Assembly: GCF_027947535.2 (NCBI RefSeq)
Contig: NZ_JAAGKO020000001.1
Span: 186,001-250,000 of the forward strand
Direction of reading: 5' to 3'
DNA: 64,000 bases
DNA from: Streptantibioticus silvisoli
GTDB taxonomy: Bacteria > Actinomycetota > Actinomycetes > Streptomycetales > Streptomycetaceae
Shown here piece after piece: positions 51,908 to 58,926 of this stretch. Positions within the stretch are counted from its first letter, which is position 1. Every line of letters starts with the position of its first letter. Both the position numbers and the translations under genes were made by a program. The notes under the pieces are model-generated. The model was not told the origin of the DNA and did no database searches. It saw only the letters and a program-made list of their open reading frames with translations.

Positions 51908-53110
51908 CTACCGGGTGACGACCGCGCCGTCGTAGACGTTGGCGGGGGTGGCGACCGCCGTGATCGCACGGGCGAGGAGGGTGGACGGTTCCTGGCCCTG
52001 GCTGGTGGAGTCCGTGTTGATCATGATCACCAGGGTGGCCCGCTGCGGGGGCAGGTAGACGGTCACGGTCTCGTAGCCCGGGATGGAGCCGTTGTGCCCG
52101 ATCCATCCGTTGGTCTCGAAGACACCGAGGCCGTAGCCGGTGCCGGGGAAGCCGGTCGGCAGTGTCTTGAGGCGCTGTGCCTGGGTCTGCGGGCTGAGCA
52201 GTCTTCCGGTGGCGACGACGTACGCCCAGCGGCGCAGGTCGTGCAGGTCGGAGATCATCGCCCCGGCCGACCAGGCCCAACTGGGATTCCAGTCGGTGGC
52301 GTCGGCGACCGCTCCGCTCAGCGTCTGGTCGGTGTATCCGTGCGGATGCGGCTCGGGGAACCCGGCTCCGCGCGGGAGCAGCGTCGCGTGCAGGCCCGCC
52401 GGGCGGAGTACCCGCCGGTCGAGGACGTCGGCGAGCCGGCGACCGGTGACCTTCTCGATCACCAGGCCGAGCAGGACCAGGTTGGTGTTCGAGTACTGGA
52501 ACCGCGCACCCGGCGCGAAGGTGTTCGGGTGCTTGAAGCCGTAGGCGAGTACCTGGTGAGGGGTGAAGTAACGGTGCGGGTCGCTCAGCAGGGCATGAGT
52601 GAAGTCCGCGTCGGAGGTGTAGGGGAACAGGCCGCTGCGCATCTCGGCGAGCTGACGGAGCGTGATCCGGCAACCGTCCGGCACGCCGGGGACGTAGCGG
52701 GAGATCGGGTCGTCCAGCCGGACCCGGTGGCGGTCCACGAGTTGCAGGAGCGCGGTGACGGTGAAGGTCTTGGTCTCGCTGCCGATCCGCACGAAGGGGC
52801 CGACGGTCATCGGCTCGCGGGTGGCGGTGTCGGCGACGCCGGTCGCGCGGACGTAGCTTCCCCGGCCCGGCATCCACAGGCCGACGACGACACCGGGGAT
52901 GCCCGCCTGTCGGCGCACGTCCCCGATCGCCTTGTCGAGCCGGGCGGTCAGCGTGCGGCCGGGACCGCCGGCCGGCAGCGGGTTTCCCTCGTGCCGGTCG
53001 GCGCTCCCGGCACGGATGGCCGTGGTGGGCGCCGCCGTCATCGGGATCAGGACGGAGGCCAGCAGCAGCGTCGCGGCGAGCAGCCGGCGTCGGCGGAGGG
53101 TACGTCTCAT
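51908..53110 (-). CDS. secreted class C beta-lactamase-family serine hydrolase
   Basis: The 400-residue protein has a signal peptide (about 1-31, RRLLAATLLLASVLIPMTAA) and a serine-hydrolase domain of the D-alanyl-D-alanine carboxypeptidase/AmpC fold. The nucleophile box is S-E-T-K (GSETKTFT, near residue 112), the second box Y-S-N (QYSNTNLVLLG, near 206), and the third H-N-G (IGHNGSIPGYE, near 340). Such enzymes act as DD-peptidases, esterases or peptidases in the cell wall. It is monocistronic, divergent from the biosynthetic operon. Two adjacent 13-bp repeats (53123-53148) lie just upstream. Confidence 0.9.
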   Translation of the reverse strand: MRRTLRRRRLLAATLLLASVLIPMTAAPTTAIRAGSADRHEGNPLPAGGPGRTLTARLDKAIGDVRRQAGIPGVVVGLWMPGRGSYVRATGVADTATREPMTVGPFVRIGSETKTFTVTALLQLVDRHRVRLDDPISRYVPGVPDGCRITLRQLAEMRSGLFPYTSDADFTHALLSDPHRYFTPHQVLAYGFKHPNTFAPGARFQYSNTNLVLLGLVIEKVTGRRLADVLDRRVLRPAGLHATLLPRGAGFPEPHPHGYTDQTLSGAVADATDWNPSWAWSAGAMISDLHDLRRWAYVVATGRLLSPQTQAQRLKTLPTGFPGTGYGLGVFETNGWIGHNGSIPGYETVTVYLPPQRATLVIMINTDSTSQGQEPSTLLARAITAVATPANVYDGAVVTR

Positions 53111-53773: not shown

Positions 53774-55600
53774 ATGACACCAGCGACGACGCGATTTCTG
53801 CCGACCGCTTTCCTGGAGCTGTACGAACAGGCGCCCGAGCGCCTGCTGTTCACCTTCGTCGACGACGAGGGGCGTGACCAGGAGCGGCTCACGGTGGCCG
53901 GTCTCGCGGCGCGGGCCGACGCGGTGGCCCGCGCCTTACCCGGGTGGGGAGTGCGTCCCGGCGACCGGGCGCTGCTGGTCCATCCGCCGTCCCTGGACTT
54001 CGTGGGCGCGTTCCTCGGCTGCCTGGCGGCGGGGGTGCTGCCGGTTCCGGTCTGTCCGCCCGATCCCCGGCGGGCGCAGGGCGTGGCGGCCTTCGCCCGC
54101 CTGGCCGCCGACTGCGAGGCCGCCGTCGTGCTCACCAACGGTGAGTACGAGCGGGCCAGGAAGCTGGGGACGGTCGCCGCCGTGTTCTCCCGGCAGACCG
54201 TGCGGTGGCCCGACCTGCCGTGGCGGCGGACCGACCGCGGCCTGTCGGACGGCCCGCCGGAACTGGACTGGCGACTGCCCGGGGACCCGGCCGCGCCCGC
54301 GTTCCTGCAGTACACCTCCGGGTCGACCAGTGACCCGCGGGGTGTGGTGATCACGCACGGGAACCTGGCCGCGGAGACCGCGGCGAACGCCACCGACCTC
54401 GGGCTGGGGGCGGGCAGCCGGGGCGTTTCCTGGGTGCCGCACTTCCACGACCTGGGCCTGATCAGCGTCATCTCCTCCACGATCGCCGGCAACGCCGACA
54501 CCTGGCTGATGTCGCCGCTGAGCTTCCTGCGCCGGCCGGCGCTGTGGCTGGAGACGGCCTCACGGGTGGGCGCCACCAGCACCGCGGCGCCGAACTTCGC
54601 CTTCGACCTCGTCGTGCGCAAGACGACACCGCAGCAACGGGCCGCCCTGGACCTGAGCCCGCTGCGCGTGGTGCTGTCCGCCGGGGAACCGGTGCGGCCC
54701 GGCACCGTCGACGGCTTCCTGGCGGCGTTCGCCCCGGCGGGGCTCGCACCGGAGGCGTTCTATCCGGCCTACGGACTCGCCGAGTGCACCGTCAGCGTGA
54801 CCATGGGGGGCCGGACCCGGCTGCGCCTGGCCAAGCAGGCACTGGCCCGCGGCGAGGCCGTCCCCGTGGGCGACGACGCTCCTGACGACGCGGTGGAACT
54901 CGTCGGCTGCGGCACCGTCACCAAGCGGGACGCCCGGGTGCGCATCGTCGATCCCACCACCCGCGTCCCCTGCGCGCCGGGCCGGATCGGGGAGATCTGG
55001 GTCGACTCGGCGACCAAGGCCCTGGGCTACTACGGACGGGACGCCGAGAGCGACGAGGTCTTCCGTGCCCGGGTGGAGGGCGACGACGACCCGCGGAGTT
55101 ACCTGCGCACCGGGGACCTCGGGTTCTTCCACGGTCAGGAGTTGTTCGTCACCGGCCGGCACAAGGACCTGATGATCGTGCACGGGCGGAACCTCTACCC
55201 GCAGGACGTCGAGGAGAGCGCCCAGCAGGCTCACGAGCTGATCCGGCCCGGCTGCGTCGCCGCGTTCGCGCTGCCGGCACGGGACGGCGCGCGCGACGAC
55301 CGGGTCGTCCTGCTCGTCGAGATCAAGCAGGGCAAGCCCGACGACGACCAGCAGCGGGATGTGGTCCGAGCCGTGCGGCAGCGGGTCCAGGACGACCACG
55401 ACGTGGTCGTCCACACCGTCGTCGTCGGCCGCCCCGGCACCGTCCGCAAGACCACCAGCGGCAAGGTCCGCCGCGCCGCCTGCCGCCAGGCCTTCGAATC
55501 CGGTGCGGTCCAGCGGGCCGCGACCACCCTCACCGTCTCCGATCTGCGCGGCGCCGGTGAACCGCTGCCCACGCGGCCCGGTCAGGGAGCGCAGCGGTGA
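53774..55600 (+). CDS. fatty-acyl-AMP ligase (FAAL)
   Basis: The 608-residue protein activates a fatty acid as acyl-adenylate for transfer to an acyl carrier protein. Adenylation motifs are QYTSGSTSDPRGVVITHGNL (near residue 180), YPAYGLAECTVSVTMGG (near 335), YLRTGDLGFFHGQELFVTGR (near 440) and KDLMIVHGRNLYPQDVE. SPLSFLRRPALWLETAS and AAPNFAFDLVVRK are characteristic of FAALs rather than acyl-CoA synthetases. Codon 55 (53936-53938) is TTA, so translation should depend on bldA. The stop overlaps the next gene (GTGA), whose ACP domain is the obvious acceptor. ATG 53774 has only a weak ribosome site. Confidence 0.92.
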   Translation: MTPATTRFLPTAFLELYEQAPERLLFTFVDDEGRDQERLTVAGLAARADAVARALPGWGVRPGDRALLVHPPSLDFVGAFLGCLAAGVLPVPVCPPDPRRAQGVAAFARLAADCEAAVVLTNGEYERARKLGTVAAVFSRQTVRWPDLPWRRTDRGLSDGPPELDWRLPGDPAAPAFLQYTSGSTSDPRGVVITHGNLAAETAANATDLGLGAGSRGVSWVPHFHDLGLISVISSTIAGNADTWLMSPLSFLRRPALWLETASRVGATSTAAPNFAFDLVVRKTTPQQRAALDLSPLRVVLSAGEPVRPGTVDGFLAAFAPAGLAPEAFYPAYGLAECTVSVTMGGRTRLRLAKQALARGEAVPVGDDAPDDAVELVGCGTVTKRDARVRIVDPTTRVPCAPGRIGEIWVDSATKALGYYGRDAESDEVFRARVEGDDDPRSYLRTGDLGFFHGQELFVTGRHKDLMIVHGRNLYPQDVEESAQQAHELIRPGCVAAFALPARDGARDDRVVLLVEIKQGKPDDDQQRDVVRAVRQRVQDDHDVVVHTVVVGRPGTVRKTTSGKVRRAACRQAFESGAVQRAATTLTVSDLRGAGEPLPTRPGQGAQR

Positions 55601-58023
55601 ACCGGGGAGCCGACCACGCCCGTACCGTGCTCGTCGTCGGGGCCGGGGCCACCGGACTCACCCTCGCGCGAGCACTGCACCGGGCCGGGCACCGCCCCAT
55701 CGTGGTGGACGCCGCCGCGACCCTGGGCGGAAAGTCCGCGTCGGTCCACCTCGACGGCCGGGCCTACGACCTCGGGGGGCACTTCTGCACCTCCCGCTAC
55801 TCCGCCGTTGAACGCCTCGCCGCCGAACTCGGCGTCGCCACCGAGGACACGACGCCCTACGCCGTGCACGAGCCCGGCGCCGGCGCGTCCGTACCGCTCG
55901 GCCGGTTGCAGCAACTCGGCGAGGCCTCGGAGCGCTACGCGGCACTGCGGGCCGAGCGCTTCCCCTCGATCGCGCAACCGGGGCTCGCGCACTCCGCCCG
56001 GGCACTGGCCCGGCCGATCACCGCATGGCTGGCCGAGCACCGCCTCGAACCCCTCTGGGAGGCACTGGGCGCCGTCTACTCCGGGTCGGGCTACGGCGAC
56101 CCGGCGCGGACACCCGCCCTGTACTTCGCCAAGTTCGTCGAACTGTCCAACCTGGCCGCGGCCGGGACCGCGCCGAGCGATCGCTCGTTCACCATCGCGG
56201 GCGGCTTCGGCCGGCTGTGGCACCGGCTCGCCGACGAACTCCCCGACGTCAGGCTCGGAGTGCGGATCGAACGGATCGAGCGGAACCCCGACGGGGTCCG
56301 GGTGAAGACCGCCGACGGTCTGCTGAGCGCCGACGACCTGGTCCTCACGGTCCCGCTGGCCCCCCTGCTCCCGGTGCTCGACTCCACCGCCGAGGAACGC
56401 GAACTGGCCGCCAGGATCCGCCACATTGACTACCGCACCGTGGTGTTCACCGCCGCCGGCCTGCCGCGCTCCCGCCTGTGCCTGCTCCGCCCGCACAGCG
56501 CCCGGCCGGTTCCCGGGCGCCTGGCCGCGTTCCACCACCGCTACGACGGCAGTGACGTCTACAGCGGTTACGTCTACGACGGCCCGGAGGACGACGAGGG
56601 GCGCGTGGTCGAACGGCTCGAGGAGGACGTGACCCGGCTGGGCGGCCGGCTCACATCCGTGCTGTCGCACCACCGGTGGGCCTACATGCCGCACTTTTCC
56701 GGCGACGACCTCGCCGCCGGGATCATGGACCGGCTCGAACAGCTTCAGGGCCGACGCCGTACCTACCACGCGGGCAGCCTCGCCGCCTTCGAGCTCGTCG
56801 AGTGCAACGTGCGCTACGCCCAGCAGCTCGCCGAACGCTTCTTCGCCGCCCCCGAAACCCGCCACGCCGCACCCTCCGCACCGCACGGGCCCGTCGCCGC
56901 GCCGCGGACGCCACGGCTCGACCGGGACGGCCTCGCCGACTGGCTGTCGACCACCATCGCCACCGAACTCGACATCCCGGCCGAGGAGATGGACCCCACC
57001 GCCCCACTCGACGACTACCCCCTGGACTCCATCACCGTCGCCTCCCTCCAGGCCGCGCTGTCCGCCCGGATCGGCAGGGACATCCCCCTCGCCGAACTGC
57101 TGGACCGGCCGACCATCGCGGAGATGGCCGAACACTTCGCGCAGCGCCCCGACCCGCGTGAGCTCAACTCCCGCAAGCCGGCCGGTACTTCGCCGCTGCT
57201 GCTGAACCTGACACCCCTGCGGCCGTTCTTCTGCGCGGGCGGCGCCGTCGGCACCACGCAGTACCTGCGCCCCCTGGCCCGTGAACTCGGCCAGGGCCGG
57301 CCCTTCTACGCCCTCCAGGCCCCCGGTTACGACGGCACGGAGGAGCCGCTCGCCCGCGTCGAGGAGCGGGCCGAGCGGTACGCCGAGGCGATCCGCCAGG
57401 TCCAGCCGCACGGCCCCTACACGCTCGGCGGTCACTCCTTCGGAGGCTGCGTCGCGTACGAGACCGCGCTGCGCCTGCGCGGCGAGGGCGAGGAGGTGGC
57501 CGGTGTCGTGCTGATCGACACGTATCTGGCGGTGCCCGGGCAGGCGCCGCCCCCGGAGGACGAGACGGCCGCGATCGAGGAGCTGATGACCATGCACCGG
57601 CTCACCGACCCCGGCAGCCGTTCCCCGGCCCGCGATCCGCTCGGCGGCCCGGACGCGGACACCTCACCCGAGCAACTGCGCGAGCAACTGGCCCGTTTCC
57701 TCGGGGCGTCCGGGACGCTGCCCTTCGAGGAGTTCGTCGTCACCATGCTCAGCGTGTACCAGGCCAGCCTGGAGGCGACGGTGCACTACCGGCCGGCGCC
57801 CTCGGATCTTCCGGTGACCCTGATCAAGGCCATGGACGGCTTCCCTCCTGTGCTCCGGGGCGACCGGCAGGTCCACCTGTGTCTGGACGACCCGAACAAC
57901 GGCTGGGACCCCGAGGCGATGTCCGCGCTGCGCACCCTCCCGACACCCGGCAACCACTTCACGGTCTTCCGGCAGCCCCAACTCCGCGAGCTGGCCGAAA
58001 CACTGCGCCACTGCCTGCGGTGA
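55597..58023 (+). CDS. FAD oxidase-ACP-thioesterase fusion
   Basis: The 808-residue protein has three modules. Residues about 8-420 are a FAD-dependent amine-oxidase/protoporphyrinogen-oxidase-like domain (VLVVGAGATGLTLARALHRA, AYDLGGHFCTSRYS). Residues about 445-525 are an acyl carrier domain with phosphopantetheine Ser478 in DDYPLDSITVAS. Residues about 540-808 are a type I thioesterase with Ser614 in GGHSFGG and His787 in GNHFTVF. The simplest model is that the FAAL loads a fatty acyl chain on Ser478, the flavin domain oxidises or desaturates it in cis, and the thioesterase releases it. No ketosynthase or condensation domain is present. GTG 55597 is translationally coupled to the ligase gene. 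Confidence 0.9.
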   Translation: MNRGADHARTVLVVGAGATGLTLARALHRAGHRPIVVDAAATLGGKSASVHLDGRAYDLGGHFCTSRYSAVERLAAELGVATEDTTPYAVHEPGAGASVPLGRLQQLGEASERYAALRAERFPSIAQPGLAHSARALARPITAWLAEHRLEPLWEALGAVYSGSGYGDPARTPALYFAKFVELSNLAAAGTAPSDRSFTIAGGFGRLWHRLADELPDVRLGVRIERIERNPDGVRVKTADGLLSADDLVLTVPLAPLLPVLDSTAEERELAARIRHIDYRTVVFTAAGLPRSRLCLLRPHSARPVPGRLAAFHHRYDGSDVYSGYVYDGPEDDEGRVVERLEEDVTRLGGRLTSVLSHHRWAYMPHFSGDDLAAGIMDRLEQLQGRRRTYHAGSLAAFELVECNVRYAQQLAERFFAAPETRHAAPSAPHGPVAAPRTPRLDRDGLADWLSTTIATELDIPAEEMDPTAPLDDYPLDSITVASLQAALSARIGRDIPLAELLDRPTIAEMAEHFAQRPDPRELNSRKPAGTSPLLLNLTPLRPFFCAGGAVGTTQYLRPLARELGQGRPFYALQAPGYDGTEEPLARVEERAERYAEAIRQVQPHGPYTLGGHSFGGCVAYETALRLRGEGEEVAGVVLIDTYLAVPGQAPPPEDETAAIEELMTMHRLTDPGSRSPARDPLGGPDADTSPEQLREQLARFLGASGTLPFEEFVVTMLSVYQASLEATVHYRPAPSDLPVTLIKAMDGFPPVLRGDRQVHLCLDDPNNGWDPEAMSALRTLPTPGNHFTVFRQPQLRELAETLRHCLR

Positions 58024-58149: not shown

Positions 58150-58926
58150 TCAGCTGTGCGTGACGTGCAGTTGGTAGATGACGATGCGCGCGCCCTTGGT
58201 GGTGCTGCTGGAGGAGGACTGGTTGTAGTCGCCGGCCTTGAAGTACTGGTGGTACTGGTCGAACGAGGAGGGGATCGAGTAGCTCGTCGTGCTGCCGTTG
58301 ACGGTGATCTCCAAAGTGTTGCCGTTGCTGACGGCGAGGGTGTAGCCGAAGGTGCTGCCGATCGGCACGTTGCCCAGGGTGTGCGTGGTCTGGCCGCCGG
58401 ACGGGGAGTTCTCGATGCCGGCCACGACATCGCCGTTGGAGTGGTAGTACAGCTCGACGAGCGGCTTGGTGGAGCTGCCGCCCGAGCCGAGGTGGATCTG
58501 GCCGACGCAGGTGCTGGAGGTGATCGAGATCGCCCGGACCCGTGCGGTCAGGGTGTGGTTGCCGCTCAGCGCCCAGTCGGCGGCGCTGCCGTCCGAGTTC
58601 ATCTCGCGCAGTTCCGAGCGGGCGTAGTTGGAGTTGGGCGTGGTGACGCCGCTCTCCGGGTCCCAGAACGTCATCCCGCCGTCCGAGCCGGTGTAGAAGT
58701 ACGAGTCCTGGTATCCGTCGGCGCCTTCCAGCTGCGAGGGCAGGATGGTGGTCGGCGACCCGGGGGAGCCGACCGGCTCCTGCAGCTCCCACGTGGAGAG
58801 GTCGAAGTTGCCGCCGGGCGCGACCGTACTGTCCAGCGCGGCGGCGGGCGTGGCGCCCAGCACTCCGACCACACCGGACAGACAGGCGGCTGCGACGACC
58901 AAGCGGATGCGGGAGAGCTTGGACAT
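58150..58926 (-). CDS. secreted alginate lyase, PL7
   Basis: The 258-residue secreted protein has a signal peptide (about 1-30) and one PL7 beta-jelly-roll domain. All three family motifs are visible: YARSELREM (the R-S-E-L-R box), VGQIHLG (QIH, usually linked with guluronate-containing alginate) and QYFKAGDYNQ. It depolymerises alginate by beta-elimination outside the cell. No carbohydrate-binding module is fused. No alginate oligomer lyase or transporter is adjacent. A 25-bp inverted repeat centred 36 bp upstream (58950-58974) suggests substrate-responsive repression. The gene is monocistronic. Confidence 0.95.
   Translation of the reverse strand: MSKLSRIRLVVAAACLSGVVGVLGATPAAALDSTVAPGGNFDLSTWELQEPVGSPGSPTTILPSQLEGADGYQDSYFYTGSDGGMTFWDPESGVTTPNSNYARSELREMNSDGSAADWALSGNHTLTARVRAISITSSTCVGQIHLGSGGSSTKPLVELYYHSNGDVVAGIENSPSGGQTTHTLGNVPIGSTFGYTLAVSNGNTLEITVNGSTTSYSIPSSFDQYHQYFKAGDYNQSSSSSTTKGARIVIYQLHVTHS

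Follow-up and report, generated by a model that had tools for sequence, protein, structure and literature searches.

Architecture of the gene pair

What can a two-gene operon do with a fatty acid if it encodes a loading enzyme, a flavin domain, a carrier protein and a thioesterase, but nothing that would extend the chain? The question arose from an original prediction made on a 64,000-nucleotide stretch of the Streptantibioticus silvisoli genome (the window), which described a fatty acyl-AMP ligase (FAAL) gene followed by a gene for a fused FAD oxidase, acyl carrier protein (ACP) and thioesterase (TE). The reading frames, a 4-bp overlap and the Pfam domains bore out this two-gene arrangement. 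The FAAL gene (53774..55600, + strand) encodes 608 amino acids between an ATG start and a TGA stop; its product is predicted to turn a free fatty acid into an acyl-AMP and to pass the acyl group to the ACP encoded by the gene that follows. The fusion gene (55597..58023, + strand) starts with GTG and encodes 808 amino acids, and the FAAL stop and the fusion start share four base pairs (GTGA). The neighbours of the pair are a beta-lactamase-family gene (51908-53110) on one side and an alginate-lyase gene (58150-58926) on the other. Both flanking genes lie on the - strand, and the operon therefore consists of two genes.

The domain search proposed for the 808-residue protein recovered, in order, Amino_oxidase (1.7e-23), PP-binding (4.3e-14) and Thioesterase (1.5e-33). 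No chain-extending domain was present in the FAAL gene or in the fusion gene, so that the claimed lack of chain extension holds for these two genes. The residues listed as intact, Ser478, Ser614 and His787, were found at those positions, and the FAAL motifs were present. The pair is not a chance arrangement, because other actinomycete families contain it too, with 47-52% identity across the three domains.

The 608-residue protein matched Pfam AMP-binding (2.5e-58), and its adenylation motifs were intact. FAAL families headed the NCBIfam ranking, with PRK05850 at 362 bits against 125 bits for the acyl-CoA ligase family PRK06187; none of them reached its curated cut-off. The top PDB matches were FAALs, the closest being 7r7e (E 1.1e-102), a FAAL labelled as a polyketide synthase. 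When compared with FAAL structures alone, the FAAL insertion region aligned without a large gap. The protein was 54-59% identical to the FAALs that adjoin homologous fusions, and 34% identical to a paralogue from its own genome. It ranks with FAALs, not with acyl-CoA ligases, and is predicted to transfer an acyl group to an ACP.

The ACP domain (56938..57135, + strand; residues 448-513) carries its phosphopantetheine serine, Ser478, in the motif LDSIT, and this serine was kept in all fusions aligned. The type I TE domain (57223..58011, + strand; residues 543-805) contains Ser614, Asp641 and His787. Asp641 completes a plausible Ser614-Asp641-His787 triad, the residues of which aligned in all intact fusions. 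As judged from these residues, the TE is an alpha/beta hydrolase with a Ser-Asp-His triad placed after the ACP.

The FAD domain and its isomerase relative

The FAD domain (55597..56850, + strand; residues 1-418) is a full-length relative of the polyunsaturated fatty acid isomerase (PAI) of P. acnes. The structure of PAI, 2b9w, was the only PDB entry matched from end to end (phmmer, 6.4e-29 over residues 11-416), and the next family scored 1e-13 over residues 10-254 only. A profile built from 21 sequences gave 2.9e-58 for 2b9w against 4.8e-27 for the next entry (hmmsearch). In the profile search, the alignments to monoamine and putrescine oxidases ended near residue 252. An AlphaFold model of the domain (pLDDT 87.4, pTM 0.89) was compared with known structures using Foldseek; the best match was again 2b9w (E 4.2e-33, TM 0.87, about 24% identity), followed by a match with an E-value of 1.4e-22 and a TM of 0.68. 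The superfamily neighbours in this fold search were oxidases. Membership of the flavin amine oxidases was considered and rejected, as no full-length relation was found; the sequence matches ended at about residue 255, leaving only the superfamily fold in common.

The conversion of linoleate by PAI involves no net oxidation. An isomerase is the better reading of the FAD domain than an oxidase, its closest characterised full-length relative being redox-neutral. The substrate clamp of PAI (Arg88, Phe168 and Phe193) was replaced in the window copy and in every actinobacterial homologue compared, and the domain is therefore termed PAI-like rather than a PAI. A thioester on a carrier would presumably need no carboxylate-binding arginine. 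The domain had been described as an amine-oxidase-like domain by which the tethered acid is oxidised. Its place in the amine-oxidase superfamily stood; oxidation is only weakly indicated, given that the full-length relative, in sequence and in predicted fold, is a redox-neutral isomerase. Oxidation was kept as a candidate reading because some relatives have peroxide-handling domains (OsmC, catalase-like).

Recurrence among actinomycetes

Relatives were found by an alignment-based scan in which each species was represented by one genome, and then by family-level searches. A single FAD sequence used as the query of genome contigs gave no match, and an alignment of seven sequences gave 32 loci. 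No relatives were found in the viral contigs searched, and tblastn against plasmids returned nothing beyond ACP-TE pieces of NRPS/PKS.

The co-occurrence of the fusion with FAALs was confirmed: a FAAL lies directly upstream of FAD-ACP-TE in 12 loci, spread over Micromonospora, Lentzea, other Pseudonocardiaceae and the window. The 11 loci outside the window are in Micromonospora sp. CB01531 (L047), Lentzea sp. NBRC 105346 (L048 and L091), L. terrae (L055), L. flava (L056), a further Lentzea genome (L102) and five more Pseudonocardiaceae genomes (L122-L126). The domain order of the window fusion was seen in L047, L048, L053, L055, L056, L091 and L122-L126; a locus in L. aerocolonigenes (L076) begins in the same way and is then interrupted by a contig end. 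Matches were present in 5 of 24 Lentzea genomes (one partial), in 11 of 150 Pseudonocardiaceae genomes (some with a standalone FAD gene only) and in 2 of 151 genomes of the Micromonospora family (one interrupted by a contig end). Among 298 genomes sampled from the family to which the window belongs, six further close matches to the FAD domain were found, and each of these was a standalone gene. The pair is conserved yet sparse among actinomycetes.

Two fusions, L053 and L072, have no adjoining FAAL. L053 (8004-11540) is one of three FAD-ACP-TE-P450 genes in Lentzea sp. NBRC 105346; given the lack of a neighbouring FAAL, it may be served by a FAAL in trans. L072 (6847-10058), found in a separate scan in Streptomyces sp. 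cf386, is the only other Streptomyces fusion found. It is degraded, with a truncated TE joined to unrelated sequence, and is accompanied by a separate catalase-like gene in which the distal His position looks replaced.

Standalone FAD relatives

No FAAL was found beside the standalone FAD relatives examined. FAAL adjacency thus goes with the ACP-fused form only, which supports loading of the fused ACP by the FAAL. Around 20 Streptomyces genomes contain a standalone gene whose product shares about 50% identity with the FAD domain (L041 9282-10598, - strand; L042-L045, L049-L052 and similar loci). Its conserved neighbours are of an inositol/sugar type and include Gfo/Idh/MocA dehydrogenases, an SDR, a PhyH dioxygenase and an IolB-like protein; the fold therefore need not act on lipids. 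In another Streptomyces (L046, 6258-10319), a 43% identical FAD homologue adjoins a beta-ketoacyl synthase gene and a divergent acyl-ACP desaturase gene.

The FAD tree groups the standalone genes of Streptomyces with a fused form, at a support of 100/99. In Crossiella and two other genomes (L067, L128 and L129), the standalone FAD gene adjoins the same regulator and transporter genes as do the complete FAAL-fusion loci L122-L125 and L100-L102, and it looks as though a fusion has been reduced at one chromosomal site. From the tree placement and the common neighbourhood of the Crossiella-type genes, the standalone forms may be later reductions.

Additional domains and PUFA synthases in relatives

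Most fusions of the relatives end in a C-terminal P450. One fusion, from Micromonospora, carries an OsmC domain at its N-terminus (7.4e-16). Allene oxide synthase (AOS) is an enzyme of PUFA hydroperoxides, and an N-terminal domain resembling it was present in two intact fusions, L091 and, by inspection, L126. The best PDB match of the L091 heme domain was coral AOS (1u5u, E 2.8e-27). Its distal His and Asn and its proximal Arg/Tyr aligned with those of the coral enzyme as named in PMC5617202. A conserved protein of about 230 amino acids follows the fusion in L122 (7586-8284, - strand), L123 (12432-13115), L124 (12554-13246) and L125 (12299-12991); it hit no Pfam family, and BLAST matched it to a segment of a P450 (approximately residues 236-390).

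In three genomes (Micromonospora sp. CB01531, Lentzea sp. NBRC 105346 and G606), a PfaA/C/D-type PUFA synthase is encoded in the same operon as the pair. The gene order in Micromonospora and Lentzea is PfaD, PfaA, PfaC-like, FAAL and fusion. PfaD scored 654 and 645 bits, respectively (cut-off 449), and the Lentzea PfaA scored 1603 bits (cut-off 1010); the Micromonospora PfaA was assigned from its position and BLAST. The PfaC-like protein has the architecture KS-AT-FabA-FabA. In G606, where the synthase was identified from BLAST matches to its Lentzea and Micromonospora counterparts, the genes lie on one strand in the order FAAL, heme-FAD-ACP-TE, PfaD, PfaA and PfaC-like. The PfaD and PfaA genes of a second Lentzea locus are divergent, and no PUFA synthase was found within the stretch examined around the Pseudonocardiaceae loci L122-L125. 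The biosynthetic neighbours in the PUFA-synthase loci would fit polyunsaturated acyl chains as substrates.

The window copy

The window fusion has neither the P450 nor the heme domain. When these were sought elsewhere in the window genome, the best P450 was only 40% identical and there was no convincing homologue of the heme domain (E 5e-4). PfaD was not found in this genome, and the FabA region of the PfaC-like synthase gave no match; no internal source of PUFA was thus found. The best KS match was to an ordinary-looking PKS pair on another contig, without a match to the FabA region. The pair is not part of a PUFA synthase (Pfa) cluster in the window genome, whereas it is in relatives. The term minimal assembly line accordingly suits the window copy and not the family, whose other members can have P450, heme or OsmC domains and a PUFA synthase besides.

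The mean identity of the window copy to the family was 57% for the FAAL, 50% for the FAD domain, 38% for the ACP and 54% for the TE, against 64, 60, 58 and 65%, respectively, among the other members; the ACP is thus its most diverged domain. Several FAD residues that are constant in the family are altered in the window copy, among them Cys47 (to Ser) and Ala164 (to Ser). The window copy forms a long branch in the FAD tree, where its place is not resolved because of long branches. It is a divergent member of the family, possibly with a different substrate, in which the frames and catalytic residues are intact.

Proposed function and alternatives

We give even chances to a reading in three steps: loading of an unsaturated acid by the FAAL, migration of its double bonds at the FAD domain while it is bound to the carrier, and release by the TE. 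As suggested by its family and its co-occurrence with the fusion, the FAAL would turn a free, probably unsaturated, fatty acid into an acyl-AMP and pass it to the phosphopantetheine on Ser478. The FAD domain would then move double bonds along the tethered chain, turning for instance a methylene-interrupted arrangement into a conjugated one. Its full-length relation to PAI in sequence and fold suggests that the flavin would take up a hydride and give it back, so that the chain undergoes no net oxidation. The TE would free the product, most simply by hydrolysis. The window copy, reduced or divergent, would have to draw its acid from another source in the cell or from the surroundings. The core of the relatives is fused in addition to a P450 and sometimes to an AOS-like heme or OsmC domain, and in some of them the adjacent PUFA synthase would supply the acid. 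The predicted loading, tethering and release, which were already part of the original prediction, are well supported by the intact motifs and by a FAAL adjacency that is confined to the ACP-fused form.

The flavin step is where the alternatives diverge. The FAD domain could instead be an acyl-ACP oxidase or dehydrogenase that adds either oxygen or a double bond, using O2 as the acceptor and forming H2O2, before the TE releases an oxidised acid. The Pfam Amino_oxidase match and the oxidases among the fold neighbours agree with such a role, and the OsmC domain in Micromonospora or the catalase-related domain in other relatives would be sensible if peroxide forms. However, there is no peroxide-handling domain in the window copy or in most relatives, the catalase-related domain is nearer to AOS than to catalase, and the coral enzyme (cAOS) does not scavenge H2O2 (PMC5617202). 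With the oxidases aligning by sequence to residues ~10-255 only and the full-length relative being an isomerase, we consider an oxidase rather unlikely. We regard it as improbable that PAI is only a distant cousin and that the domain is redox-active on a non-lipid or hydroxylated acyl substrate, or redox-neutral without double-bond migration. The loss of the PAI clamp residues and the occurrence of close standalone homologues in IolB/Gfo-Idh-MocA/SDR/PhyH clusters are in its favour, whereas the FAAL partner points to acyl chains, as do the PUFA synthase, acyl-ACP desaturase and cAOS that accompany relatives. The standalone genes also carry less weight if they are later reductions, as the Streptomyces genes join a fused form and the Crossiella-type genes lie in a fused-form neighbourhood.

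A different kind of explanation is that a larger PUFA-tailoring locus has broken down, leaving in the window a copy that is decaying or no longer functional. The P450 domain and PUFA synthase are missing, the branch in the tree is long, and the Streptomyces fusion L072 is visibly degraded. Against this, both long frames are intact and coupled by 4 bp, every catalytic residue is present, and the G606 relative (1222 amino acids), situated in a full PUFA operon, likewise lacks a P450, which makes decay very improbable. Returning to double-bond shifting on the carrier, we tentatively raise the possibility that the family forms an undescribed actinobacterial oxylipin-like line on one carrier, in which PUFA made by Pfa enzymes would be loaded by the FAAL, conjugated by the PAI-like domain, processed as hydroperoxide by the AOS-like domain, hydroxylated by the P450 and released or cyclised by the TE. 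The window copy would be the smallest core of such a line.

Relation to known systems

All of the parts belong to known families, and any novelty lies in their combination. PAI, the linoleate 10,12-isomerase of Propionibacterium acnes (2b9w), resembles the FAD domain over its full length in sequence and fold and is an FAD enzyme of fatty acids. However, it is free-standing and converts free linoleic acid to the trans-10,cis-12 conjugated isomer (PMC2885616), whereas the window domain is fused to ACP-TE, has a FAAL partner and lacks the PAI clamp residues. In lipopeptide and PKS assembly lines, for example those of the daptomycin type (PMC9113097), a FAAL activates a fatty acid and loads it on an ACP. 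Activation and ACP loading are common to both systems; the window differs in having no NRPS/PKS elongation and in its ACP being fused between an FAD domain and a TE. The operons of relatives contain PfaA, PfaC-like and PfaD proteins of the PUFA and secondary lipid synthases covered in PMC3098273, and the window genome does not. The association of FAAL with FAD-ACP-TE was not found in the passages of that source that were consulted. Some relatives, like the coral and cyanobacterial fusions of catalase-related AOS with lipoxygenase, join a cAOS-like heme domain to a second fatty-acid enzyme. The partner here is a PAI-like FAD domain with ACP-TE(-P450) and not a lipoxygenase, and the window copy has no heme domain. 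In the open-licence literature searched, no description was found of a PAI-like flavoenzyme joined to ACP and TE and partnered by a FAAL, and the statement that this exact fusion is uncharacterised still stands.

If correct, the proposed function would make the FAD domain a carrier-bound counterpart of a free-acid isomerase. It would also link bacterial PUFA synthases to conjugated or oxidised lipids of the kinds that signal in plants and animals. To our knowledge, most products of actinomycete PUFA synthases are unknown. The pair offers a testable core of two genes (FAAL and FAD-ACP-TE), and the relatives named above hold the pathways to substrate and product in one operon. A small separate cluster, which includes an ACP-like gene and an AMP ligase gene, was noted approximately 7-15 kb downstream of the pair, just past the end of the window (L093, 10835-19268).
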